A program made the position numbers and the translations under genes. 64,000 nucleotides of DNA from Triparma columacea (taxonomy: Eukaryota > Sar > Bolidophyceae > Parmales > Triparmaceae): assembly GCA_030267965.1 (NCBI GenBank), contig BRYA01000148.1, positions 16,944 to 80,943 of the forward strand, given 5' to 3'. Below, one piece after another: positions 22,092-64,000 of this stretch. Every line of letters starts with the position of its first letter. The first letter of the stretch is position 1. The notes below the pieces were generated by a model, which had not been told where the DNA came from, did not search any database, and was given only the letters and a program-made list of their open reading frames with translations.

Positions 22092-23470
22092 TTAGTGCAT
22101 AACGGAGTGATGTCGTTTGAGATTGCCTTTGTGCTTCGCTTTGTAGTCGCAGTCCTCACAGTGGTGCCAGGTCACGTTTTTATTGTGGATGTATACACGA
22201 TGCTTCTTGAGGTTACCTTTATCCTTCGCTTTGTAGTCGCAGTCTTCACAGTGGTGCCAGATCACGTTTTCATTGTGGATAACTGCACGATGCTGCTTGA
22301 GTTTGCCCTTTCGCTTCGCTTTGTAGTCGCAGTCCTCACAGTGGTGCCAGGTCACGTTTTCATTGTGAATACTTGCACGATGCCTGTTGATATTACTTTT
22401 ATGCTTCGCTTTGTAGTCGCAGTCCTCACAGCGGTGCCAGGTCACGTTTTTGTTGTGGATTAATGCGCGATGTTGTTTGAGGGAGCCTTTTTGCTTCGCT
22501 TTGTAGTCGCAGTCCTCACAGTGGTGCCAGGTCACGTTTTCATTGTGGATGGATGCGCGATGGATCTTGAGGTAGCTTTTTTGCTTCGTTTTGTAGTCGC
22601 AGTCCTCACAGTGGTGCCAGATCACGTTTTCATTGTGGACATCTGCACGATGCCTGTTGAGAGAGCCTTTTCGCTTCGCTTTGTAGTCGCAGTCGTCACA
22701 GTGGTGCCAGGTCACGTTTTTGTTGTGGATATCTGAACGATGCTTCTTGAGAGCGCCTTTTTGCTTCGCTTTGTAGTCGCAGTCCTCACAGTGGTGCCAG
22801 GTCACGTTTTTATTGTGGATGTGTGCGCGATGTATCTTGAGGCAATGTTTCCAATTTGTCCTGTAGCTGCATCCACGTTCACTACAAACAAACTTCTTCC
22901 CATCCTTCACACTACCCACAGCTTGCTCTTTGACTTCTGCCTCTTCGTCACTATCCTCATCAATCGAGACTAGATCATCGTCATAGTCGTCGTCCTCCTC
23001 CTCCTCCTCTTCCTCCTCTTCGCTTTTGTTGCTGTTAGAGTCTATCGAACGCAAAATCACTTCCTCCTCTTCACTACCCTCCTCCTTCTTACACACCCCA
23101 CAAAGCAATGAGCCTCCACCCCATTCTTCTTCAAAGCTACTCTCACCCTCAACATCCTCCACCTTGCAACCAGCTTGATCAACCTCACCATAACCGCTGG
23201 GAAGCTCAATTTTCACCCTGCTCCTCTCTTCCTTCGTTGTTGTCTCCCTCATATTCTTCAAGCTCTATTACGGTACCCTCAAGCTCCCTGAAAATGGCCT
23301 TCCAGTGTGTGAGATCTTCGGGGATGTTAGGGGCAAGCACTTGCAGATCCAAAATGGGGAGGTTCGGTAGGAAATCGAGGGAAATCGTTGATGAAATACG
23401 GCCAAAACCGCAAATGTCAAAATCACAGGGTTTTGTGAACGAGTACCCAAGAAAATATCAACAGAGAAAA
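21925..23470. repeat. Segmental duplication, copy A (zinc-finger gene and flanks)
   Basis: This stretch and about 25590-27010 are near-parallel copies in the same orientation. Similarity begins in the 3' flank (CGTCCTA...AAGAGATAGAACC and the GGGGGTGATTCGGG block), runs through the zinc-finger ORF with one finger gained or lost, and continues about 200 bases past the ATG to CACAGGGTTTTGT. The copies flank the membrane gene at 23820-25406. The near-identity of the upstream part suggests recent origin or gene conversion. Confidence 0.85.
22092..23252 (-). CDS. C2H2 zinc-finger protein, nine fingers (copy A)
   Basis: Single exon, 386 residues from the ATG at 23252; the frame is open a little further only to a TTG. 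The N-terminal ~120 residues are acidic (Glu/Asp runs, one CGVCKKEE pair). One degenerate finger, CSERGCSYRTNW, starts the array. Eight tandem fingers follow on a 30-residue period of the form NVTWHHCEDCDYKAK-12-H-4-H, spaced by HN(K/E)N. Fingers differ mainly at the helix positions that contact DNA (KGALKK, KGSLNR, KSYLKI), which is what is expected if base specificity is diverging. Presumably a DNA-binding regulator. It has a paralogue at 25755-26816. Confidence 0.85.
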   Translation of the reverse strand: MRETTTKEERSRVKIELPSGYGEVDQAGCKVEDVEGESSFEEEWGGGSLLCGVCKKEEGSEEEEVILRSIDSNSNKSEEEEEEEEEDDDYDDDLVSIDEDSDEEAEVKEQAVGSVKDGKKFVCSERGCSYRTNWKHCLKIHRAHIHNKNVTWHHCEDCDYKAKQKGALKKHRSDIHNKNVTWHHCDDCDYKAKRKGSLNRHRADVHNENVIWHHCEDCDYKTKQKSYLKIHRASIHNENVTWHHCEDCDYKAKQKGSLKQHRALIHNKNVTWHRCEDCDYKAKHKSNINRHRASIHNENVTWHHCEDCDYKAKRKGKLKQHRAVIHNENVIWHHCEDCDYKAKDKGNLKKHRVYIHNKNVTWHHCEDCDYKAKHKGNLKRHHSVMH

Positions 23471-25754: not shown

Positions 25755-27010
25755 TTAGTGCAGTGAGGCGCGATGTCGTTTGAGATGTGCATTTTGCTTC
25801 GCTTTGTAGTCGCAGTCCTCACAGTGGTGCCAGGTCACGTTTTCATTGTGGATTAATGCGCGATGCTGCTTGAGTTTGCCTTTTTGCTTCGTTTTGTAGT
25901 CGCAGTCCTCACAGTGGTGCCAGGTCACGTTTTCGTTGTGGATATCTGCGCGATGCTTCTTGAGGTGGCTTTTTTGCTTCGTTTTGTAGTCGCAGTCCTT
26001 ACAGTGGTGCCAGGTCATGTTTTCGTTGTGGATCAATGCGCGATGCCTCTTGAGATTGCCTTTGTGCTTCGCTTTGTAGTCGCAGTCCTCACAGTGGTGC
26101 CAGGTCACGTTTTCATTGTGGATTAATGCGCGATGCACCTTGAGTTCGCCTTTTCGCTTCGCTTTGTAGTCACAGTCCTCACAGCGGTGCCAGGTCACGT
26201 TTTTGTTGTGGACGGATGCGCGATGTCGTATGAGATGTGCATTTTGCTTCGCTTTGTAGTCACAGTCCTCACAGTGGTGCCAGATCACGTTTTTGTTGTG
26301 GATGGATGCGTTATGCAGCTTGAGATGACATTTTTGCTTCGCTTTGTAGTCGCAGTCCTCACAGTGGTGCCAGGTCACGTTTTCATTGTGAATACTTGCA
26401 CGATGCTGCTTGAAGCAAAATTTCCAGTTTGTCCTGTAGCTGCACCCAGGTTCACTACAAACGAACTTCTTCCCATCCTTCATACTACCCACAGCTTGCT
26501 CTTCGACTTCTGCCTCTTCGTCACTATCCTCATAGATCGAGACTACATCCTCGTCCTCCTCCTCTTCTCTGTCGTCGCTGTTAGGGTTTATCAAACACAA
26601 ATCCACTTCCTCCTCTTCACTACCCTCCTCCTCCTTACAAACTCCACAAAGCAACGCTGCTCCTCTCCCCCCTCCCCCACCAACGTCCTCATCTTCCACT
26701 TCTTTCTCACCCTCAACTTCCTCCACCTTGCAACCAGCTTGATCAACCTCACCATAACCTCTGGGAAGCTCTATTTTCACCCTGCTCCTCTCCTCCTTCG
26801 TTATTGTCTCCCCCATATTCTTCAAGTTCTATTACGGTACCCTCAAGCTCCCTGAAAATGGCCTTCCAGTGAGTGAGATCTTCGGGGATGTTAGGGGCAA
26901 GCACTTGCAGATCCAAAATGGGGAGGTTCGGTAGGAAATCGAGGGAAATCGTTAATGAAATACGGGAACACCCGCAGATGTCAAAATCACAGGGTTTTGT
27001 ACACGATAAC
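25590..27010. repeat. Segmental duplication, copy B (zinc-finger gene and flanks)
   Basis: Second copy of the block described at 21925-23470, in the same orientation. Here the array has one finger fewer than copy A and the upstream flank diverges after CACAGGGTTTTGTACACG. Confidence 0.85.
25755..26816 (-). CDS. C2H2 zinc-finger protein, eight fingers (copy B)
   Basis: Single exon, 353 residues from the ATG at 26816. Same plan as copy A: an acidic N terminus (KEVEDEDVGGGGGRG, CGVCKEEE), one CSEPGCSYRTNW finger, then seven tandem WHHCEDCDYKAK-type fingers. Helix residues differ from copy A (KCHLKL, NAHLIR, KGELKV, KSHLKK), so the copies probably bind different DNA sequences if they bind DNA. 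The linker and knuckle sequences are nearly constant, which suggests exchange between fingers by unequal crossing-over or conversion. Confidence 0.85.
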   Translation of the reverse strand: MGETITKEERSRVKIELPRGYGEVDQAGCKVEEVEGEKEVEDEDVGGGGGRGAALLCGVCKEEEGSEEEEVDLCLINPNSDDREEEEDEDVVSIYEDSDEEAEVEEQAVGSMKDGKKFVCSEPGCSYRTNWKFCFKQHRASIHNENVTWHHCEDCDYKAKQKCHLKLHNASIHNKNVIWHHCEDCDYKAKQNAHLIRHRASVHNKNVTWHRCEDCDYKAKRKGELKVHRALIHNENVTWHHCEDCDYKAKHKGNLKRHRALIHNENMTWHHCKDCDYKTKQKSHLKKHRADIHNENVTWHHCEDCDYKTKQKGKLKQHRALIHNENVTWHHCEDCDYKAKQNAHLKRHRASLH

Positions 27011-34261: not shown

Positions 34262-34598
34262 CGTTTGGAGGGGCCTTGTGGAAGGTTGGTCGTCGCAGGG
34301 GGGTTGAGAAGTGGGCTGTTTTGGGGTTGTTGGCTAGGGGGTGGCATACACGCGCGACACTAGTTAAGGAGTACCAGTATGCTGCGGCACTAAGGGTGAG
34401 AGGGAGGGGTCAGAGCCCAAACTTGATTCTCAACTCCGAACTGTATTTATTCTGACAATCCGGGTCATTCCGTGCGCAAGGGTGAGAGCAAAACTTGTTT
34501 TTGGCAAATAAATTGAAACACAAATCCAGCACTTTTTTGAGCCCGCCCTGCCCAAATCGTGACACATGAGCAACCCGGAGTTTCTATAAAAACGGCGA
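34262..34598. promoter_or_regulatory. Divergent intergenic region between two membrane-protein genes
   Basis: 337 bases between the start codons of the receptor-START gene and the membrane protein at 34599. A CTATAAAAA lies only 10-15 bases before the latter ATG, which is too close for a standard TATA box. No ORF or repeat was seen. Confidence 0.35.
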
Positions 34599-36095
34599 AT
34601 GAGCGAAACATCTCCCTCTCAACCCTCAACCCCAGCTGACCTGGCCTCTACTGTTGCAGATGAAGCTCCTCCCCCGCCTGCCGCCTGGCTCCGTCCAGCC
34701 GCGTTGCTCTTGTCCGATGCTGTCTCATACATTGCCTCCCAAATAACCGGCCCTGCCTCCCCACCCCCTCCCCACCTCGAACCCTTGATGAACTTCCTCA
34801 AGGCTCAGGGGCCTACCAAGAACATCATCAAACCTTCCGACCCTACTCTCGTCGACGAGGAGACCACGGTCGATGTAGTCACTGAGCGTCCTCTCCTTGA
34901 TGCATCAAAATATTCCATAAACGATCGGACAAAAAGAAGGCGGTCAAGCGTGTCTATCGGCTCGCAAGTGGAGATGGTAGAAAGGGAGTTTACGGTTGGG
35001 GACAAGAACAGCAGCCAGGTTGCACCCTTCGGTGACGAAGCATCTTATAGTGAGCGCATCACTCCTAATGTGTCGGCATCAGTGACTGAGAAGGTAATCG
35101 GAGAATATTCAACCGTGCCGACCTCGACGATTGTGGTCTTCGAGCCGAAGCTCGAGGGAGGCATGCTCAAGGATGGTGTAGTACTGAAGGACCTAGTGCG
35201 GAACACCAGAGGCCTGGGGAGCTTCGTAGAGGGTTTCCTTCAGCCCATCGGTGCTTTTCTTACTTTCATACCTGCGCCGTTACTTCCTTTGTGGGGGCCA
35301 TTTGCGATCGCGGGCTTGACAAATACAAGCCTTGGTGACGGAACAGAGAGCATCACCAAGGCCTCTGTAGTCATATTGATGTTGTCTGGTATTGGCGGCT
35401 CGGTTTTTTGTTGCATTATGGCCATGGACTATCATGTCGGCACCTTTTCCCTCATCATTCGAAATGCCAAGCTGACGATTCTTCTCAACATTGGCAGTCG
35501 TCTCGTGTATACTGTCGCTGCCATTATCCACTACCCTCACGCCGCAAACGTTTGCTGTTTAGTTGGCCAGCTAATAACGACAGTTAACTATAGCTTCATG
35601 GACGCGCTGAAAGTAACCCAAATGATGCGCTTTACTGAGGAGGGTTACAAGGCCGCGTTTGGGAGCGCCATCGCTGGTTTTCTAAATTTTTGTGTGTTCG
35701 TATTCAACTTTATCTTCGAGTTGTGCCGGCACTTTGCTATCCTCAAGTTGATGAGTGATAGCGACGAGGTGAACGTGGTTGCGGTGTTGCCTGCGAGACT
35801 GTTCGGTAGTGAGCTCGTCATCACAAACTTGAATCTCATGAACGTCACATTCACGACCTCCATGGTGCTGTACTTGAGGTCTATACTACTGACATTTAGC
35901 ACCGGGGGCAAACGATTTGTGGTCCTCAACACGCCTATCAACTTCAAAGCTGTCTACAGACCAACGGCGCTGCCGATAATAGGAGACGAAGATCCACCTC
36001 CTGACGGAATAGGAGACGAAAACCGTGAGGATCCGCAACCTGACGGTATATCAGACGAAGACCCACCAGGCGAGGATCCGCAACCTGAGGAATAG
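34599..36095 (+). CDS. Polytopic membrane protein, unknown family
   Basis: Single exon, 498 residues. The N-terminal ~200 residues are Pro/Ser-rich and charged, with a Pro run and a KRRRSSVSIGS kinase-type site. Six or more hydrophobic segments lie between about 215 and 440 (FLTFIPAPLLPLWGPFAIAGL, VVILMLSGIGGSVFCCIMAM, AGFLNFCVFVFNFIFELC, TFTTSMVLYLRSILLTF). The C terminus has short degenerate repeats built on DEDPP/DPQPDGI. No known transporter or receptor motif was found, and I do not see clear similarity to the membrane protein at 23820. Divergent from the receptor-START gene. Confidence 0.7.
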   Translation: MSETSPSQPSTPADLASTVADEAPPPPAAWLRPAALLLSDAVSYIASQITGPASPPPPHLEPLMNFLKAQGPTKNIIKPSDPTLVDEETTVDVVTERPLLDASKYSINDRTKRRRSSVSIGSQVEMVEREFTVGDKNSSQVAPFGDEASYSERITPNVSASVTEKVIGEYSTVPTSTIVVFEPKLEGGMLKDGVVLKDLVRNTRGLGSFVEGFLQPIGAFLTFIPAPLLPLWGPFAIAGLTNTSLGDGTESITKASVVILMLSGIGGSVFCCIMAMDYHVGTFSLIIRNAKLTILLNIGSRLVYTVAAIIHYPHAANVCCLVGQLITTVNYSFMDALKVTQMMRFTEEGYKAAFGSAIAGFLNFCVFVFNFIFELCRHFAILKLMSDSDEVNVVAVLPARLFGSELVITNLNLMNVTFTTSMVLYLRSILLTFSTGGKRFVVLNTPINFKAVYRPTALPIIGDEDPPPDGIGDENREDPQPDGISDEDPPGEDPQPEE

Positions 36096-37296: not shown

Positions 37297-38581
37297 TTAG
37301 ATCCACCACGGCTTAAGGTCAGTCCTAAAGTCAGTTTCGGTCCACGGTGTGTAAGTGATAACATCCGAGTCGGAGACGGCCACGTGGGCGAGTGCCAGAC
37401 TTAGGGGGGCGGGACCGCGGACGACCTTGCCGGTGGAGTCGTACTGGGAACCGTGGCAGGGGCACATGAACTTGTTCGCGGAGGCTACCCATGGGACCAC
37501 ACAACCAAGGTGAGTGCAGACGGCGTTCAGACCGTACTGGTGGGGGGAGGGGGGAGGAGGGGGGGGGGGGGGTTAGGTTAGGGGTGCATTGTTGTAGTTG
37601 TTGATTCCCAGTATGGTTGTTTGGCAGCCACTTCCAGATTGCTGGTGGCGCGTCGCTGAAATGCAAGTCGCACATCCACACTCAACCATCCATGCGGTAT
37701 GGTATCATGATCGAAATAAAAGTCCCCCCCCGCGCTTGTTGCTCGTTTTCCCTTTCCCTCCCCCCCCCCTCTCAGCACGCCAACTTACATTCTCGATAGA
37801 CTTATCCTCCTTGACGATAAGGTAAGTCGCGTCCCCCTTGAGTCCCTGGGTGAGGCTGTGGTCCCCCGGTGGGTGAGACGCCAGCCATCCCGTCTTGGTA
37901 ACGTCGTTACCCAGGGCGTCCTTAGCTGAGACGCCTCCTCCTCCACCGCCGGCTGAGGGGGGGTAGAAGAAGGCGACGAAGGGACCACCGAGACCGGCGA
38001 TTGTGGCGCCGGCGGAGGATACTAGGATGAGGTTCATGAGGTTGCGACGCTCCATGTCGGGGACGAAGGCATCTGCCTCGGCAGTGAGGGATGTGGTGGA
38101 TGGGGTGGAGATGGGTGATGAACGGGGTGTGATAAAGGACTAAATAGGGTGTATTTTAGGGGTATTGAGGGTATGGTGAGGTGTGTGTTAGTATGATTGT
38201 GAGTGTGATGGTATTAAAAGTGTTTTAGCGTAGATATTAGTCCCAAATTAGTCCCAAATTAGTCAAAGGTTTGAGGTCAATGTGGTCGAAAAGGTGTTGT
38301 TCTCTCCATTTATTTTTCTTATTTACAGCCATAATGACTATTGATGCTGTGTACACGATGACTATGTGAATTCGTACGCATGTGTATGTATATAAAGGAA
38401 TATAACAGGTTTTAAGGTTGAAATGGAGAGGTATCGATGTCGGACCGATGGGTGTAGCTTGTTATGTCATTTATATCCCCCTAACTATCTATCAGTGTAC
38501 ATACTATATTTTAGAATCACTTACTCTTGGTGTAAAACCTGAAGCCGTAGCTAAAAGTAGACAAAGTATAGAACAGCGCAT
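37297..38581 (-). CDS. petC: Cytochrome b6f Rieske iron-sulfur protein, plastid
   Basis: Exons, 5' to 3': 38581-38525, 38139-37789, 37536-37297 (215 residues). The core is clearly PetC, not mitochondrial Rieske: [13 protein letters not shown] (membrane anchor), [30 protein letters not shown], the cluster motifs CTHLGC and [24 protein letters not shown] and the end [11 protein letters not shown]. Exon 1 is my inference: it encodes [19 protein letters not shown], a signal peptide with an ASGF plastid cleavage motif, in the right phase, but the first intron would then be 385 bases, longer than others here. If that exon is wrong, the gene starts at another 5' exon or at the ATG at 38055. The intron between exons 2 and 3 holds a G-run. 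Confidence 0.85.
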
Positions 38582-38802: not shown

Positions 38803-39865
38803 TCAAATTACGCTTTCCGAGTCCGTTTCCTTCATCTCTACCTCTCCCTCCTTCTCTCTCACCTCCCAATCAAGTTCTTCCTTAACAATAACCTTCTTCC
38901 CGCACATAAGTCCCGCTCCCTGATCGTTAATCCTCTCCGTAATCCCCGCTGCCACCACGCTACTAACCGTACCCGCAACCATGCACGCCGCCAGTCCCAG
39001 CCTCCCGTCCGTACCCTGATAAACGCCCTCGTAAGAACCGACGTAACTGTAGAGGACACCACTACCTAATGTACCCAGGAGCCTACCGGCCGCATTCGAC
39101 ATGTAGTAGAAACCTTGGGAAGGTGAGGGAGGGAGGGTTGAGTTTTGTGGGGGTTAGAGTGTATTATCTTCGCGTGCCAACGGCGTGGAGTATCAAGTAC
39201 GGAAGGTCCCTAAGTTTTGTGTTTCCGATTGCACCTAACATAGAATCCTCTCCCTCGCCCCCCACCATTCTCCCCCGTTCAGTTATTCTGTCTCGTTGCA
39301 CGAGCCCAAGTCTCACCTACGGACACTGCGACCTTCTCCCTCTTCGCGTACTTGACGACAAGGTAGCTATGTATGGATGAGTTGACTGCGAATATAACAG
39401 CGAACGTAACCACGATCGTAATTAACCACGCAATCATACCACCCCTGTCGTAATCAGTGAAGCTGGGAGCAACGTAAAGGGCAATCGAAAATACTAGGGT
39501 TGGGAAAATGTTCACGGTTCCCCAGAGGACTTCGGTGAGCTGCGACACACGGTGAGGGAAGCGAGGGAAGCGAAAAATCCATCACCCAAGAAAACAAAGA
39601 GTAAGGTTGGGAAACGGAGATTTTAAACCGCCCTTCAATCAAAACCCCCCTCTTCCCCGCGCTCTCACCTTGTTGGGGGGTGTCTGGTTAAGCGGCCCTG
39701 TAACTAGCTGTGGTGTCCACGACTGAACCTGGCCGTATAGGATAATGTACGCCCCCAAGATCGCGCCTACGAGGATGCGTGAGAAACCTAGTCCTCCGCA
39801 TCCTGGGAGAACGGGAGGGGGGTATAAGGTTATGGTGTGAGTGGAAAAGCTTCGTCTTCTCTATG

Positions 39866-39905
<40 letters not shown>

Positions 39906-41130
39906 CCTCTCTCTCTCTATCTCTCCCTCTCTATCTCTCCCCCCCCCCTACACACACCCACAAAAAACAAACAAACGCTCACCTCCTCCAACGTTCTGAT
40001 TAACGCACATCCCCCCCTCACACATTGCCCCCGGCGTGCACTGGTCCACGTTGCTGCACGTGAAGCCTGCCCCCAGCTCGTCGCAGCGTGGGCTACGGAG
40101 GTAAAACGGCAAAGGTACCTCGAACCAGAAATCCCGGCTAGCGAAAAGGAATAACCTAGCGAGGCTGAGGTAGTTTAGGTTCCTGTTATCGAGCTTGAAG
40201 ATCTCCGAGAAGTTTGCGTTTGACTTCTTTGCCGTACCTAGAGACTTTTCCAGCCCAAATATAGCGAACGGTAGAGCTGCGATTATCAGGAACATCATTA
40301 CACCAAGAGCTAGGTAGTAGTTAACCTGAACAAGCGCGCTACCTAGGAAGTAACCCACGCCCTTGAGTGAGTTCTTCATCCCCGTTAGCACGCTTACGAG
40401 TTTGAAAAGCCTCGTCCTCTGACCTTCCTTAGTGACGAGTTTAGTGACGGTTTTACCACCGAGCTTTGTCAAGTCCTTGGCGATACCACCGAACATTGAT
40501 GCGAAGGTTACGTAAATTATCGCCTTGCTTTTCTCCCAATTCTCGTCCCATGCAAACAACAGACCGTACGAGAAAAGCTGTAAGCAAAGTCCTGTAATAA
40601 GTGTGCTTTTAATACCCCACCTCGCCCCCGCAACGCCAGCCCCTAGGTTAGTGAAAACTCCGGCGAGCTCGTAGAGAGTGAAGGTTATTGCTACCTCCAT
40701 TGCGGAGAATGATTGGGAGTATGCGAAGAGGAGGATTATCATACGGATCGCACCGTCGGTTATGGTGAAGAGGAGGTAGCAGATTGTTATTATGTAGAAT
40801 GGTTTTCTAGGGGTTTTTTGGGGGGGGGGAGGGAGGGAGGGAGGGTTAGGAGGGGGATGAGATAAAAAGATTCGTCGAGTTCGTCCATCGCTCGCTCGTT
40901 TCGTCACTTGGTCCTTCCTTCCTACGCACTCACAGCGATGGGTCCTTCTCTTCCTCTCCAGCATTGTTGTCTCCACTACTATTGTTGTCTCCACCACTAC
41001 TGTTGTCTCCACTGTGAATGACGATTGTGTATTTAGCATCATCTGCTACCTCCTCGCTCTCCTTCCCTACGGTGGTTTGAAGTGATTTGTCTATCCCTAC
41101 GGTAGAAGAGGCATCTTTGAGAAGGGCCAT
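38803..41130 (-). CDS. arsJ: ArsJ-like organoarsenical efflux MFS transporter
   Basis: Exons, 5' to 3': 41130-40934, 40806-39983, 39802-39669, 39539-39317, 39113-38803 (562 residues), all phases consistent. In bacteria ArsJ exports 1-arseno-3-phosphoglycerate made by an operon GAPDH. Blocks that fit ArsJ are YLLFTITDGAIRMIILL, LYELAGVFTNLGAG, FGGIAKDLTKLGGKTVTKLV, TGMKNSLKGVGYFLGS, ASRDFWFEVPLPFYL, YGQVQSWTPQLVTGPL and GFYYMSNAAGRLLGT. Two things differ from bacterial forms: a ~65-residue N-terminal tail with GDNNSSGDNN repeats, and a Cys-rich insertion in the middle loop (CDELGAGFTCSNVDQC to MCVNQNVGGGCGG). Its neighbour, head to head 414 bases away, is the matching GAPDH. Introns show it is a resident nuclear gene. 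Arsenate resistance is inferred from family and context. Confidence 0.85.
39862..39945 (-). repeat. CT microsatellite in arsJ intron
   Basis: About 80 bases of (CT)n with TTT and CCC interruptions on the plus strand, inside the intron between arsJ exons 2 and 3. Confidence 0.9.
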
Positions 41131-41544
41131 GACGATGGTGATTTGTAAGGTTCTAAAAAGGCTTGAGGGAGATAATTAGGAGTAGGAAGTTGATGGTATT
41201 GATTTGAATGGGAGGTGAATGACAGGATTGGTGTGATATGTTGACCAAATCGGCTATTTGTGTGCAAATTGTAGGGATTCCTTTTGTGAATCTGACCACC
41301 ATTCTCAGAGGCTGATCCCTTGTCATTTCCTTCTTCTTCTCTTTACCATAACCAAAGTCCATTGTTAAGGTGTGTTTAACGTTATTCTCGTCCAATTAAC
41401 TACCATATCATCGGCTTGTTGGCTTCAACTTGCGAATATAGACTTATTTATTGGATCTTTGGAATCTGGCGACTATCTCGTTCCTCTCCTCACCCTTCCT
41501 CACCCCTCCTCTCCCCTCCTCACCCAACCCTCACAGATAACAAA
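41131..41544. promoter_or_regulatory. Shared divergent promoter region of arsJ and gapdh
   Basis: 414 bases between the two start codons. Just before the gapdh ATG, CTCACCC repeats end in CCCTCACAG|ATAACAAAATG, which could be the 3' end of a 5'-UTR intron. No obvious metal-response element was recognised. A shared promoter would allow joint expression; that is inference. Confidence 0.5.
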
Positions 41545-42737
41545 ATGTCAACTGAAATATGCGTTAACGGCCTCGGCCGCATTGGTCGTCTCCTAATTCG
41601 CTGCCTCCATTCAGACCCCACAATAAAAATATCCCACCTCAACGACGTCTGCTCCATCGAGTCCGCAGCCTACCTCCTCCAATACGACACCGTCCACGGC
41701 ACATGGGACAAGAAGGTCGCAATCGAAGGCGATAACATCGTCATCGACGGAGTCCCGATACCATTCACTTCCAACCCTGATCCTGCAACCCTGACCATGT
41801 CAACAAAGATTTCAATGGTAGCCGATTGCACGGGGAAATTCCTAAAGGTAGCAGGGCTCAAGGTGAGAGCATCGCGCGTAAAATTCACAAGCAGCTCCTA
41901 GAAATTGGGAATGTTGCATGTCGCCTTGGCGTAACATTGGTTTCAGATCGCTCAAAGAATCTGTATCTAACCTCCAAATGCATACATCTTTCTCCCCATT
42001 CACCCTTTGCCTCGTCGTAGTCTGCCTACCTCGAGAACCCCAACTACGGTCACATCAAGAAGGTAATCGTCAGTGCTCCCGTCAAGGAGGCTGAGGCTCT
42101 CAACGTCGTCATAGGTTGCAACGAACACAAGCTCACTGACGAAATTCAGATAATCACAAACGCCTCCTGCACGACCAACTGCATCGGCCCGGTCGTTAAG
42201 GTAATAATGTCCTCCTTCGGCATCAAGCACGGGTGCATAACCACATGCCACAACGTAACCGGCACCCAAACCCTAGTCGACATGCCCAACACTAAGAAGT
42301 CGGACCTCAGGAGGGCTAGGAGCGGCATGTGCAACCTCTGCCCCACGAGCACCGGGAGCGCTACGGCGATAACCGAAGTGTACCCTGAGCTCAAGGGTAA
42401 GATGAACGGACTGGCCATACGAGTGCCCCTACTTAACGCATCGATTACCGACTGCGTTTTCGAAGTCGAACGTCCCGTCACGCGGGAGGAGGTCAACAAG
42501 GCTCTCTCGGACGCCGCTTCCGGGGAGCTCAAGGGTATCCTCGGGTTCTCCACGGAACCCCTCGTCAGCACTGACTACGTTAACGATGAGAGGAGCAGTA
42601 TTGTCGACGCGCTAAGCACGATGGTCATCGACGGTACTATGGTTAAGATTTACGCGTGGTACGATAACGAGTATGGGTATAGTAAGAGGATGGCGGAGCT
42701 TGTCAGCATGGTAGCGGAGAAATTCGTGAGGAAGTAA
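41545..42737 (+). CDS. ArsJ-associated-type glyceraldehyde-3-phosphate dehydrogenase
   Basis: Exons 41545-41862 and 42021-42737 (344 residues), phase 0 join. The NAD-binding start [14 protein letters not shown] and the catalytic SCTTNC are present. It resembles the GAPDH encoded in bacterial ars operons beside arsJ more than glycolytic GapA/Gap[95 protein letters not shown]. That enzyme can use arsenate in place of phosphate to make 1-arseno-3-phosphoglycerate, which ArsJ removes. No targeting peptide is seen, so it is probably cytosolic. Glycolytic or plastid GAPDH genes are expected elsewhere. Assignment as GAPDH is certain; as the ars type, likely. Confidence 0.85.
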
Positions 42738-44881: not shown

Positions 44882-46901
44882 CTAGCTTACGTCCCCCTCC
44901 TGCTTTAATATCACGTCCCCCTCCTGCTTTAATATCATCTCCGGCCACTCCTCCATGATGTTAACTACAAACTCCCCAAACAAGCTATTAGCCCAAGCAA
45001 ACCAACTCCTCGTAAATACATTTGCGTCGTCCTTCCAGAAGCTCTCGTGCATGAAACCCGTCCCCGCCGTCGCCTCCACCAGCATGTCCAAGCACTTCTT
45101 GACCTCCCCCCCATCCAAGCTAGTCATGCCCCTCACAATAACGCCCATAGGCCAAATGTAACCATATCCAACGTGAGGACCGCCAACGCCCTCGCCGGCG
45201 GAACCGGAGAAGAAGAAGGGGTTGGTAGACCTGCTAAGGATGGCCTCCCTAGTGTTCAGGTAAATCTCGTCGTCTCTGTCCACGAAGCCAAGGTACGGCA
45301 GCGCCAGCAGGGAGGGAACGTTGGCGTCGTCCATGAATAATGAGTTACCGAAACCGTCAACCTCGTAAGCGAACACCCTCTTACCAGTAACACGGTGGGT
45401 GATCACGCCGTGGGCGTATATTCCGGACTCTATATCGTCCGCCAAGGTTTGCATCCTCCCCGCTAGTTCCCGCTGCTCGTCCTCGGTAACGTCAGGGTTG
45501 GGGGATAGGGTAGAGGTTATAAGATTAGAGACGTGACGGAGCTCGACGCAGGCCATGGCGTTGGCCGGGATCAAGAAAGGGTAGGTAACGGCGTCGTCTG
45601 AGGGACGGAACTGGCACTGTTTGAGAGGGGGTTTGGGAGAGGGGGGGAGGGGGGGAGGGGGGGGGGAGTTAGAAGAGAGGACGACGGAACAAGACACCAT
45701 CTTCATCCCCACCCTATAACCCTACCCCCTCTACCACCACAACCCATCGCCATAAGCATACACACCTTGCTCATCCCCGTCCTCGCGCAAGGCGCGCCCT
45801 TCCCTCCCTGCATTAGCGTGTCGGTCGCCGCCTCCGTGGTCCTCTGGAACTCGTAGTTAACCCTCCTCTCCCCCTCGTCCTCGTCCGTGCTCTGCTGCTG
45901 GTCGACCATCGTATCCACGGCGGCGGAAATGGCGCGGAGCCAGAGGGACTTTGAGGAAGGACCGGAAGGACCCTGGAAAAGATGGGTGGAACCGGAGGAG
46001 TGGACAAGACGGGAGAGCTTGAGGAAGGCGGCGAGACTGTCCAGCTCGTACTTGCCCTCGAAGGTGGAGTTGCTCATCTTGGGGATCCGAGAGTCAGATG
46101 CGTGCTGAAGGGGTTTGGAAGGGGAGGGAAGAGAGAGAGGGAGAGGCGAGGGGAGAAGCGATGGTTGGCTTGTGGAATGGTTGGTGTAAGTCCCCCCTCC
46201 CCGACCCCCCCTTTCCCCCTCACCTCACTAGCCTGGCTGGCGTCAAAGTTGAAGGCGTTTGCGTAGCTATCTATAAGGACGCTCCTACTCATCCTCATGA
46301 CGAGGTTGGAAAGGAGGAGATCGAGGGAATCGTCCGACTTTATGAAGGGGAGGAAAGGGAGGACCTGGTTGCACGAGTCTCGCAGCCACATGGCGTCAAT
46401 ATCGCCCGTGATTATGAAGGTGTCAGAGGAGGAGTGGAAACCCACTGTGGTGTCAAGAGTGTTGGGGAACGTGTTCGAGAAGAGCTGAGAAGGGGGGGGG
46501 TGTTAGTGGAGCGCAGAGAGGCACCGGAGGGGGATAGGCTACCGCGAATGTCGGATAGATATGTAGTCAGGACGGCGTAGTTGTTTTTGGTCTAATGTGT
46601 GTGTGTGTGTGTGCTAGTTAACCCCAAACGGGGCAGAAGGTTGGAAGTTGTTGTCTTGTAAATTCCTCAGCCTCCATCCCCCGGAGCACCAACTTACTCT
46701 TCCGAGATCCTCGTCCTGGAACTGTTCAACAACAGATTGCAAATAGGTGTCAACGGAATCAGAGTGAAAAGTTCGATTTTCATATGCTGGCCGACCATCC
46801 GGAACATCCACAGCGGTAGAGCCAAGGTATGATGTAGTCGTGGAGATGAGGAGGAGGAGGAGGAGGGAGGGGCGAGCGCGGGGAAGAGGGGAGAACCTCA
46901 T
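44882..46901 (-). CDS. GH125 exo-alpha-1,6-mannosidase-like protein (MUG157 family)
   Basis: Exons, 5' to 3': 46901-46698, 46484-46224, 46104-45766, 45616-44882 (512 residues). It starts with a signal peptide or anchor (RPSLLLLLLISTTTSY). Family blocks are DLGR|LFSNTFPNTLDTTV across the first junction, FIITGDIDAMWLRDSCNQVLPF (with the acidic residue region of the active site), KYELDSLAAFLKL, CQFRPSDDAVTYPFLIPANAMA, EVDGFGNSLFMDDANVPSLLALPYLG and GTGFMHESFWKDD. GH125 enzymes remove alpha-1,6-mannose; location is probably the secretory pathway. The C terminus has a 24-base duplication giving ILKQEGDV twice. Start codons of this gene and the GT60 gene are 72 bases apart on opposite strands. Confidence 0.88.
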
Positions 46902-62649: not shown

Positions 62650-63931
62650 CTAATAGGGCAGCAACATTTGTAGGAAAAATTGATTTGATTTGTTATCGTT
62701 TTGATTATTATGTAAGTGGTTAGGTGTATGTTGTGTATTGTGGGAGTGTTATATTGGTTCGTGAGTATATAAGAAGCGTAGTAGATGTATTGTGAGGTTT
62801 GAAAAGAAGATTGAGAGTATTTGGAAGAGTAGTAGATGTATTGTGGGAGTGTTAAAGTGGTTTGTGAGTATAATGGAAGTATAGTAGATGTGTATGAAAT
62901 TTTGGAGAGTTTTGGAAGTATTATAGTGATTTGTGAGTATAATGGAAGTGTAGTGGATGTGTATGGGAATGAATTAAATGAGGGGGAGTGTGGTTGTAGA
63001 AAGGAGTTATGGGTTGAGAGAAGAAGAGAGGAGGGTATAAGGTATAATAATGTGTGTAAGTGTAGAAGATGTGTATGAAGATGAAATAGGAGGGCGAGTG
63101 TAGTTTTGGAGAGAAGTGAGAGGATTTATGGGTTGAGGGTAGAAGAGAGGAAAGTGTAAGGTGGAATGATGTGTGTAAGTGTAGTAGATGTGTATGAAGA
63201 TGAATTAAATGAGGGTGAGTGTAGATGTGGAGAGAAGTGAAAGGATTTAAGGGTTGAGGGTAGGAGAGAGGAAGGTGTAAGGTGGAATGATATGTGTAAG
63301 TGAAGTAGATGTGTATGAAGATGAATTAAATGAGAGTGGATGTAGTGTTAGAGAGGAGTGAGAGAAGTTAAGGAGAGAGAGAAGAAGAGAGGAGGGTATA
63401 TGATGGAATGATATGTGTAAGTGTAGTAGATGTGTATGAAGATGAGTTGAAAGAGGATGAGTGTAGTGAAGAAAAGGGAGTGAGAGGAGTTAAAGGGTAG
63501 GAGTGGTGGTTTGTGAGTATAATGAAAGTGTAGTAGATATGTATGGGGATGAATAAGGAGTGTAAGTGTGGTTATTGAAAGAAGAGAGAAGAAGAAAGGG
63601 GTGAAAGAAGTGGTTTGTGAGGATAATGGAAGTGTAGTAGATATGTATGGAGATGAATGAAAGAGTGTGAGTGTGGTTGTGGAGAGGTGAGAGGAGTTAA
63701 GGAGTGAGAGTAAAAGAGAGGAGGGTATAAGGTAAAATGATGTGTGTAAGTGTATTTGATGTGTATGAAGATGAATTAAATGAGTGTGAGTGTAGTTTTG
63801 GAGAGAAGTGAGAGAAGTTAAGGAGAGAGAGTAGAAGAGAGGAGAATATTAGGTTGAATGGTGTGTGTAAGAATAAAGTGTGTGTAAGAGTAAAATCTGT
63901 GCGAAGATAAAGTGTGTGAATGGTGTAAAGT
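62650..63931. repeat. Subtelomeric degenerate repeat, period about 120 bp
   Basis: Between the giant ORF and the telomere the strand is G/A/T-rich and nearly C-free. Units begin ATGTGTGTAAGTGTAGTAGATGTGTATGAAGATGAATTAAATGAG and recur near 63050, 63168, 63290, 63410 and, with more decay, to about 63880. Earlier copies (62770-62960) have GTGGTTTGTGAGTATAATGGAAGTGTAGTAGATG. No gene. Confidence 0.85.
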
Positions 63932-64000
63932 GGGTTAGGGTTAGGGTTAGGGTTAGGGTTAGGGTTAGGGTTAGGGTTAGGGTTAGGGTTAGGGTTAGGG
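63932..64000 (+). repeat. Telomere, (TTAGGG)n
   Basis: Perfect GGGTTA repeats run to the last base; the G-rich strand reads 5' to 3' outward, so this is the right end of a chromosome or scaffold. Confidence 0.98.

Follow-up and report, generated by a model that had tools for sequence, protein, structure and literature searches.

Arsenate gets into cells together with phosphate. The gapdh-arsJ pair of the Pseudomonas aeruginosa DK2-type ars operon, in which both partners of an arsenate-related route lie side by side, was reportedly described by Chen et al. in 2016. Here, we analyzed a eukaryotic pair of the same two families in the bolidophyte Triparma columacea (Parmales), where an arsJ gene on the minus strand and a GAPDH gene on the plus strand lie head to head. 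The stretch of DNA that was studied, referred to as the window, comprises 64,000 nucleotides (contig C147:16944-80943 of a 37.85 Mb genome in 789 contigs), and positions refer to the window unless another contig is named.

The closest described systems are compared here. With the bacterial ars-operon gapdh-arsJ pair of the P. aeruginosa DK2 type (via PMC7826186, PMC9454679), the Triparma pair shares the two adjacent families and both the catalytic and the ars-specific residues of the GAPDH. It differs from the bacterial pair in that its genes are divergent instead of co-directional, that they contain introns, and that the seven neighboring open reading frames (ORFs) scanned gave no Pfam match of ars type. 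At the protein level, ArsJ of Triparma is set apart from bacterial ArsJ by its hydrophilic tail at the N-terminus and its loop with six cysteines. Its GAPDH carries an NTKK-type insert of three residues before DLRRAR (residues ~196-200), which occurs in 31/31 eukaryotic ars GAPDHs but not in the common bacterial forms.

Among eukaryotes, green algae possess ArsJ-GAPDH3-PGK neighborhoods, with ArsJ and GAPDH3 being either jointly present or jointly absent in the genomes analyzed there, and arsJ and pgk3 mutants of Chlamydomonas are sensitive to arsenate (PMC7826186). This ArsJ-GAPDH3-PGK3/PGK4 neighborhood is likewise eukaryotic, places ArsJ near a bacterial-type GAPDH and comes without an ArsBHC-type neighborhood; the Triparma pair belongs to another algal lineage and lacks the nearby PGK that most, but not all, green algae have (PMC7826186). 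In the T. columacea genome, no Acr3 match above cut-off was obtained (one match of 29 bits; no Acr3 match on contig C147) and ArsH gave no match, which is in line with the green algae, where the ArsJ-type neighborhood is found in genomes without the ArsBHC-type (PMC7826186). Cyanidiales red algae also have a eukaryotic arsJ, which groups with Viridiplantae and other eukaryotes, but there the gene stands alone with no clustered GAPDH, and the supplementary tree of that study may already include ochrophyte ArsJ (PMC9812998). The GAPC1-OCT4 route of Pteris vittata has the same proposed chemistry, 1-arseno-3-phosphoglycerate being made and moved (PMC7826186, PMC9454679), but employs an unrelated transporter and a plant GapC and has been termed convergent (PMC7826186). 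The Triparma pair is not the first eukaryotic case, as this kind of system is known from green algae (PMC7826186). The main text of the parmalean genome paper contains neither 'arsen' nor 'ArsJ' (PMC10328945). In the open-licence literature (searched for diatom, phytoplankton, Phaeodactylum and stramenopile), we found no report of an ochrophyte ArsJ and no relevant paper on an ArsJ with an extracellular loop; nor did we find in print there the pair in a bolidophyte, its head-to-head arrangement without PGK or the cysteine loop.

In surface seawater, arsenate is a competitor of phosphate, and diatoms, together with their relatives, rank among the major primary producers. The analysis presented here would extend the arsenylation-export route, shown in Pseudomonas and supported by mutants of Chlamydomonas, to a bolidophyte in the form of a linked pair, and it places both protein families in diatoms and bolidophytes that are known by name. 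With a probability of roughly 0.82, we consider the pair to be a eukaryotic arsenate-detoxification unit that combines arsenylation by GAPDH, export by ArsJ and a divergent promoter.

Structure of the divergent arsJ-GAPDH locus

An earlier reading of the window, made from the sequence without database searches and referred to here as the sequence-only reading, had placed the pair at 38803-42737. This interval is bounded exactly by the two stop codons, that of arsJ on the minus strand and that of the GAPDH gene on the plus strand, and the proposed head-to-head layout with 414 nt between the two start codons was confirmed to the base. The GAPDH gene encodes 344 aa in two exons with one intron on the plus strand, while arsJ encodes 562 aa in five exons with four GT-AG introns of 127, 180, 129 and 203 nt on the minus strand. 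In the ORF listing, only one in-frame ATG lies after the preceding stop and ahead of the homologous part of each gene, and this ATG is the start. The features of the locus are as follows:

41545..41862, plus strand: exon 1 of the ars-type GAPDH gene, residues 1-106, NAD-binding part (open frame, GT-AG junction, Gp_dh_N above cut-off)
41863..42020, plus strand: intron of the GAPDH gene, 158 nt, GT-AG (alignments of relatives span the junction)
42021..42737, plus strand: exon 2 of the ars-type GAPDH gene, residues 107-344, with Cys156, His183, Ser219 and Leu243 (splice model, family profiles, residue comparison)
41131..41544, no strand: intergenic stretch, 414 nt, 42% GC, presumed bidirectional promoter
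40934..41130, minus strand: exon 1 of arsJ, with the start codon at 41130 and a hydrophilic N-terminal tail (only in-frame ATG)
39983..40806, minus strand: exon 2 of arsJ, first transmembrane half and beginning of the cysteine loop (NF033734 match on the exon)
39798..40085, minus strand: six-cysteine loop, Cys307, 316, 322, 328, 333 and 342, interrupted by intron 2 (alignment; insert absent from bacterial ArsJ)
39669..39802, minus strand: exon 3 of arsJ (alignment to P0001)
39317..39539, minus strand: exon 4 of arsJ (alignment to P0001)
38803..39113, minus strand: exon 5 of arsJ, with the FYYMSNAAGRLLGT motif, the C-terminal tail and the stop codon (alignment to P0001)

Alignments of relatives across the junctions support the splice models. 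ArsJ matched P0001 (MMETSP0785, whose incomplete name 'Bolidom' we read as Bolidomonas) at 84% over 96% with all four junctions aligned, and the alignment of the GAPDH to Triparma retinervis P0121 (82%) runs across the intron junction. All five introns of the pair are GT-AG introns with a GTGAG donor, in agreement with the argument of the sequence-only reading that spliceosomal introns in both genes mark them as eukaryotic and not as bacterial contamination. A profile search of the genome for ArsJ returned this gene alone; with the six other GAPDHs identified (a lower bound) outside the ars clade, one ArsJ and one ars-type GAPDH are seen in the genome. From the 12,177-16,002 genes of parmalean genomes (PMC10328945), we estimate a chance of ~1 in 7,000 for any two given genes to be neighbors at random, which suggests a linkage beyond chance.

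Assignment of the GAPDH to the ars-operon type

The sequence-only reading had regarded the GAPDH as being of the ars-operon type. Family scores, phylogeny and diagnostic residues agree in this assignment, and, judged by its predicted protein sequence, the enzyme is of the ars-operon type and not GapC-like. Out of 11 NCBIfam families matched, the best was the ArsJ-associated GAPDH family NF033735 with 447.2 bits, 51 bits above the next family and 94 above GAPDH-I (353.3 bits). Identity to 82 bacterial ars GAPDHs was 46-60% with a median of 51, the top values coming from partial ORFs, compared to 33-42% for 19 further members of the GAPDH family that are encoded in ten of these bacterial genomes, paralogues that are not all proven to be glycolytic.

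For the phylogeny, 80 of the 82 bacterial ars GAPDHs were used and two with <250 residues were excluded. A quick tree of 97 rows included 50/80 bacterial ars GAPDHs, 22/31 eukaryotic ones, 19/19 paralogues and 6/6 other GAPDHs from T. columacea itself; a careful tree of 73 rows, from which long, partial and redundant rows had been dropped, included 39 bacterial ars, 16 eukaryotic, 16 paralogous and two own-genome proteins. In both trees, the eukaryotic ars GAPDHs were gathered in a single clade (careful tree: 100/99), and eukaryotic and bacterial ArsJ-linked GAPDHs were joined against all other rows (100/99, 73 rows). The other side of the careful tree consisted of the 16 bacterial paralogues and the two presumed glycolytic GAPDHs encoded on contig C580 of the same genome. 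In the quick tree, the six other GAPDHs of the genome, which holds at least that many, also fell outside the ars clade. Constraining the eukaryotic rows to group with the two C580 GAPDHs gave a tree that was 217 log units worse (approximately unbiased (AU) test, p-AU 1.7e-6). The grouping with glycolytic GapC, which the sequence-only reading had named as the outcome that would speak against its assignment, was thereby rejected. Inside the eukaryotic clade, a Parmales group (100/96, one unnamed row) was separate from a diatom group (99/90, two unnamed rows), as predicted by vertical descent.

At the residue level, the catalytic Cys156 and His183 were constant across all GAPDH groups. Two further positions, picked from the alignment in the present analysis, distinguish the ars proteins: Ser219 was present in 31/31 eukaryotic and 80/80 bacterial ars GAPDHs and in neither the bacterial paralogues (0/19) nor the other GAPDHs of the genome (0/6), which have Ala or Leu there, and Leu243 was present in 30/31 eukaryotic and 77/80 bacterial ars GAPDHs compared to 0/19 and 0/6, respectively, with Thr or Cys at this position. 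The assignment of these positions to the classical GAPDH numbering is our presumption.

The transporter and the proposed arsenate route

The second protein matched one NCBIfam family only, the ArsJ family NF033734 (E 1.6e-99), in support of its earlier naming as ArsJ, and the profile of the major facilitator superfamily (MFS), PF07690, matched with 39 bits, above the cut-off of 33.4. In ten ArsJ-bearing bacterial genomes, ArsJ reached 568-620 bits, compared to 16 bits for the stretch ranked next; the gap below the ArsJ cut-off is not empty everywhere, since 1/14 control genomes has a below-cut-off NF033734 match at E <= 0.001. No solved structure of ArsJ was matched at E <= 0.001.

In the proposed route, the ars-type GAPDH, which shows no targeting extension and presumably resides in the cytosol, would act on glyceraldehyde 3-phosphate with NAD+, arsenate replacing phosphate, and thereby produce 1-arseno-3-phosphoglycerate. 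The MFS permease ArsJ would clear this unstable ester from the cytosol, at the plasma membrane or the vacuole, before it breaks down, and the common divergent promoter region of 414 nt would permit co-expression of both genes. Substrate, reaction, export and phenotype are presumed here by analogy to the bacterial and Chlamydomonas work. Family membership, linkage and published work together suggest that the two-gene arsenate-detoxification unit put forward by the sequence-only reading is the best reading of the locus.

A number of observations weigh against it. Both proteins remain below the curated cut-offs of their families, ArsJ with 333.7 bits versus 400 for NF033734 and the GAPDH with 3 bits less than the 450 of NF033735. 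In the ArsJ tree, which is unrooted and comprises 69 rows (22/148 eukaryotic and 47/87 bacterial proteins, no outgroup, bootstrap not fully settled), a very long branch (100/100) separates the eukaryotes from all bacterial rows. This leaves room for a shift in substrate and is compatible with a position of eukaryotic ArsJ either inside or beside bacterial ArsJ. The earlier assignment to ArsJ is supported by the profile match. Both GAPDH trees gave a long-branch warning at the junction of the ars side with three divergent paralogues. Two threonines of the GAPDH do not discriminate, as Thr188 is also found in 9/19 bacterial paralogues and 4/6 other GAPDHs of the genome, and Thr221 is Lys in 31/80 bacterial ars proteins. 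No PGK lies beside the pair; the genome has at least 12 PF00162 matches, none of them on contig C147. Finally, the 414-nt intergenic stretch has no P1BS-like motif GNATATNC, which across the window occurs nine times versus 8.9 expected.

Origin of the linkage and alternative readings

The sequence-only reading had also proposed that the pair was gained by joint horizontal transfer and then kept linked. This was not borne out by the analysis: the trees name no donor, the ArsJ tree is unrooted, and the bacterial pairs are arranged differently. The bacterial sample comprised 87 ArsJ loci, namely seven plasmid loci and 80 from GTDB genomes, the latter being the best of at least 587 stretches that were obtained with a cyanobacterial ArsJ as the lead of the alignment and thus biased to that query; a first scan of genome contigs for ArsJ had yielded 0/35 confirmed stretches. 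In 80/87 loci, the GAPDH gene lies <=1.5 kb upstream of arsJ on the same strand, and the remaining ones have one fused ORF, one GAPDH gene 3.7 kb off and five without a GAPDH gene in the stretch covered. As none of the 87 loci is divergent, one or more inversions, or else a renewed association of the genes, are needed to arrive at the present layout.

It is accordingly a serious contender, though one that we lean against, that the pair was not inherited together, the genes having been gained separately or having drifted apart before they became neighbors again in this lineage under selection for co-expression. The co-directional bacterial pairs suggest that the head-to-head layout is probably derived, and evidence that green algae received intact clusters from other organisms is in general scarce (PMC7826186). 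On the other hand, the ArsJ-GAPDH pair has been proposed to have come as a unit from bacteria (PMC7826186), both proteins show a single eukaryotic clade with Parmales and diatoms, and one inversion suffices to explain the layout. Joint transfer with retained linkage may thus still be envisaged. In AU tests on possible donors, grouping of the eukaryotic GAPDHs with filamentous cyanobacteria (p-AU 0.014), Myxococcota (0.027) or an Acidobacteria group with L077 (0.027) fitted poorly, and grouping with marine picocyanobacteria was not rejected (p-AU 0.16). As these four candidate groups were chosen after the tree was seen, we name no donor.

Another reading is that the transporter exports a different phosphoglycerate-like or organic-anion substrate and that the unit serves carbon/phosphate balance and not arsenic. 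The long branch of eukaryotic ArsJ, its score below the cut-off and the loop that bacterial ArsJ lacks would fit, as would the finding that in Nodularia the ArsJ-associated GAPDH gene and, at a later time, arsJ are upregulated under phosphate limitation, with most arsenate-related genes unresponsive (PMC9846622). We nevertheless consider this reading unlikely, given the linkage with an ars GAPDH and the arsenate sensitivity of the Chlamydomonas arsJ mutant (PMC7826186). Far less probable still is that the GAPDH is a GapC of glycolysis or the Calvin cycle which adjoins the transporter by chance; domains and catalytic residues are alike, but tree, AU test, family scores and diagnostic residues led us to reject this identity, and the genome carries other GAPDHs for such a role. 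Bacterial contamination of the assembly was dismissed, with nothing found in its favor, on the grounds of the five spliceosomal introns, the closest named relatives (Bolidomonas, with the incomplete name, Triparma and Tetraparma), neighbors such as PetC, a methyltransferase and a GH125 gene, and the TTAGGG repeats that end the contig.

A six-cysteine loop in eukaryotic ArsJ

Within the arsenate-detoxification reading, one feature of the transporter stands out from its bacterial counterparts. Between LPFYLRSP and GGGCGG, the alignment reveals an insert without counterpart in bacterial ArsJ. Our eukaryotic set comprised 148 ArsJ proteins including that of the window, of which 143 were parsable; these are mutually related and do not represent independent cases. 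Six or seven loop cysteines were present in 142/143 and three in the remaining one, with the spacing C-x7-C-x5-C-x5-C-x5/6-C-x8-C in 75/143. The 86/87 parsable bacterial proteins have no (78) or one (8) cysteine at this place. Standard MFS topology would place such a loop on the non-cytosolic side of the membrane; a hydropathy scan of ArsJ did not resolve all helices. The loop may therefore face away from the cytosol, and its cysteines may form disulfides.

More speculatively, algal ArsJ might early in eukaryotic history have gained a disulfide-type six-cysteine module between the SRDFWFEVPLPFYL helix and the helix that begins near residue 344, facing away from the cytosol and tuning or gating the export of 1-arseno-3-phosphoglycerate, while the ochrophyte unit would be a two-gene, PGK-free cassette with one bidirectional promoter. 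We regard this combined scenario as tentative and on balance doubtful: the loop itself is read from the sequence, and its membrane side, disulfides and role as well as the spread of the linked layout are presumed. The loop, absent from bacterial ArsJ, offers a handle on how algal and bacterial pumps differ.

Distribution of both families

The protein searches for ArsJ listed the best 120 matches each, most of them without names. The named ArsJ relatives among the matches listed were diatoms, Bolidomonas, Tetraparma and the haptophyte Calcidiscus, and the named GAPDH relatives were diatoms, Triparma and Tetraparma. Both families appeared among the matches listed for Tetraparma gracilis (P0083, P0123), Cylindrotheca fusiformis (P0047, P0153) and MMETSP 'Odont' (P0027, P0161); of the three GAPDHs P0123, P0153 and P0161, the trees included P0123 only. 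The ars-type GAPDH of Phaeodactylum is P0222. Among the best 120 ArsJ matches listed per search, none was named as green-algal. In viruses, 0 of 66 pattern-matched viral-contig stretches were confirmed as an ArsJ of the eukaryotic kind, and phage records gave one partial ArsJ match (35.5%). In a Filomicrobium metagenome-assembled genome (L057:4837-7251), the ars GAPDH and ArsJ are encoded in a single open reading frame and thus form a natural fusion.

Genomic neighborhood and further observations

Next to arsJ, the gene for the Rieske protein PetC has two exons within 37300-38139 on the minus strand. A methyltransferase gene lies downstream of the GAPDH gene, a GH125 mannosidase gene is located at 44885-46224 (minus strand), and the ORF at 34590-36092 matched nothing. 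All ArsM candidates among the methyltransferases of the genome remained below the model cut-off (best 167.5 of 263). The GC content at third codon positions of the pair (0.59 and 0.70) is within the range of four rough neighboring ORFs (0.58-0.71), so that nothing flags the two genes as recent arrivals.

Contig C147 ends at 80943 with TTAGGG repeats (63932-64000 of the window), which are preceded by arrays of G-rich 104-242-nt repeats at 62946-63871. This end of the contig is telomere and subtelomere, and the pair lies ~21 kb away from it.

Elsewhere in the genome, a GAPDH is fused to PGK in one open frame of 580 aa with more PGK beyond (G000:C100:56840-59150; L006, L026), and contig C424 carries another GAPDH of that divergent type. 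The two presumed glycolytic GAPDH genes on contig C580 (G000:C580:18749-22325; L022, L023) also lie head to head, ~1.6 kb apart. Within the window, two repeat arrays at 22117-22842 and 25768-26413, ~3 kb apart, consist of ~7-8 copies each of a similar 90-nt unit with a 270-nt higher-order period.

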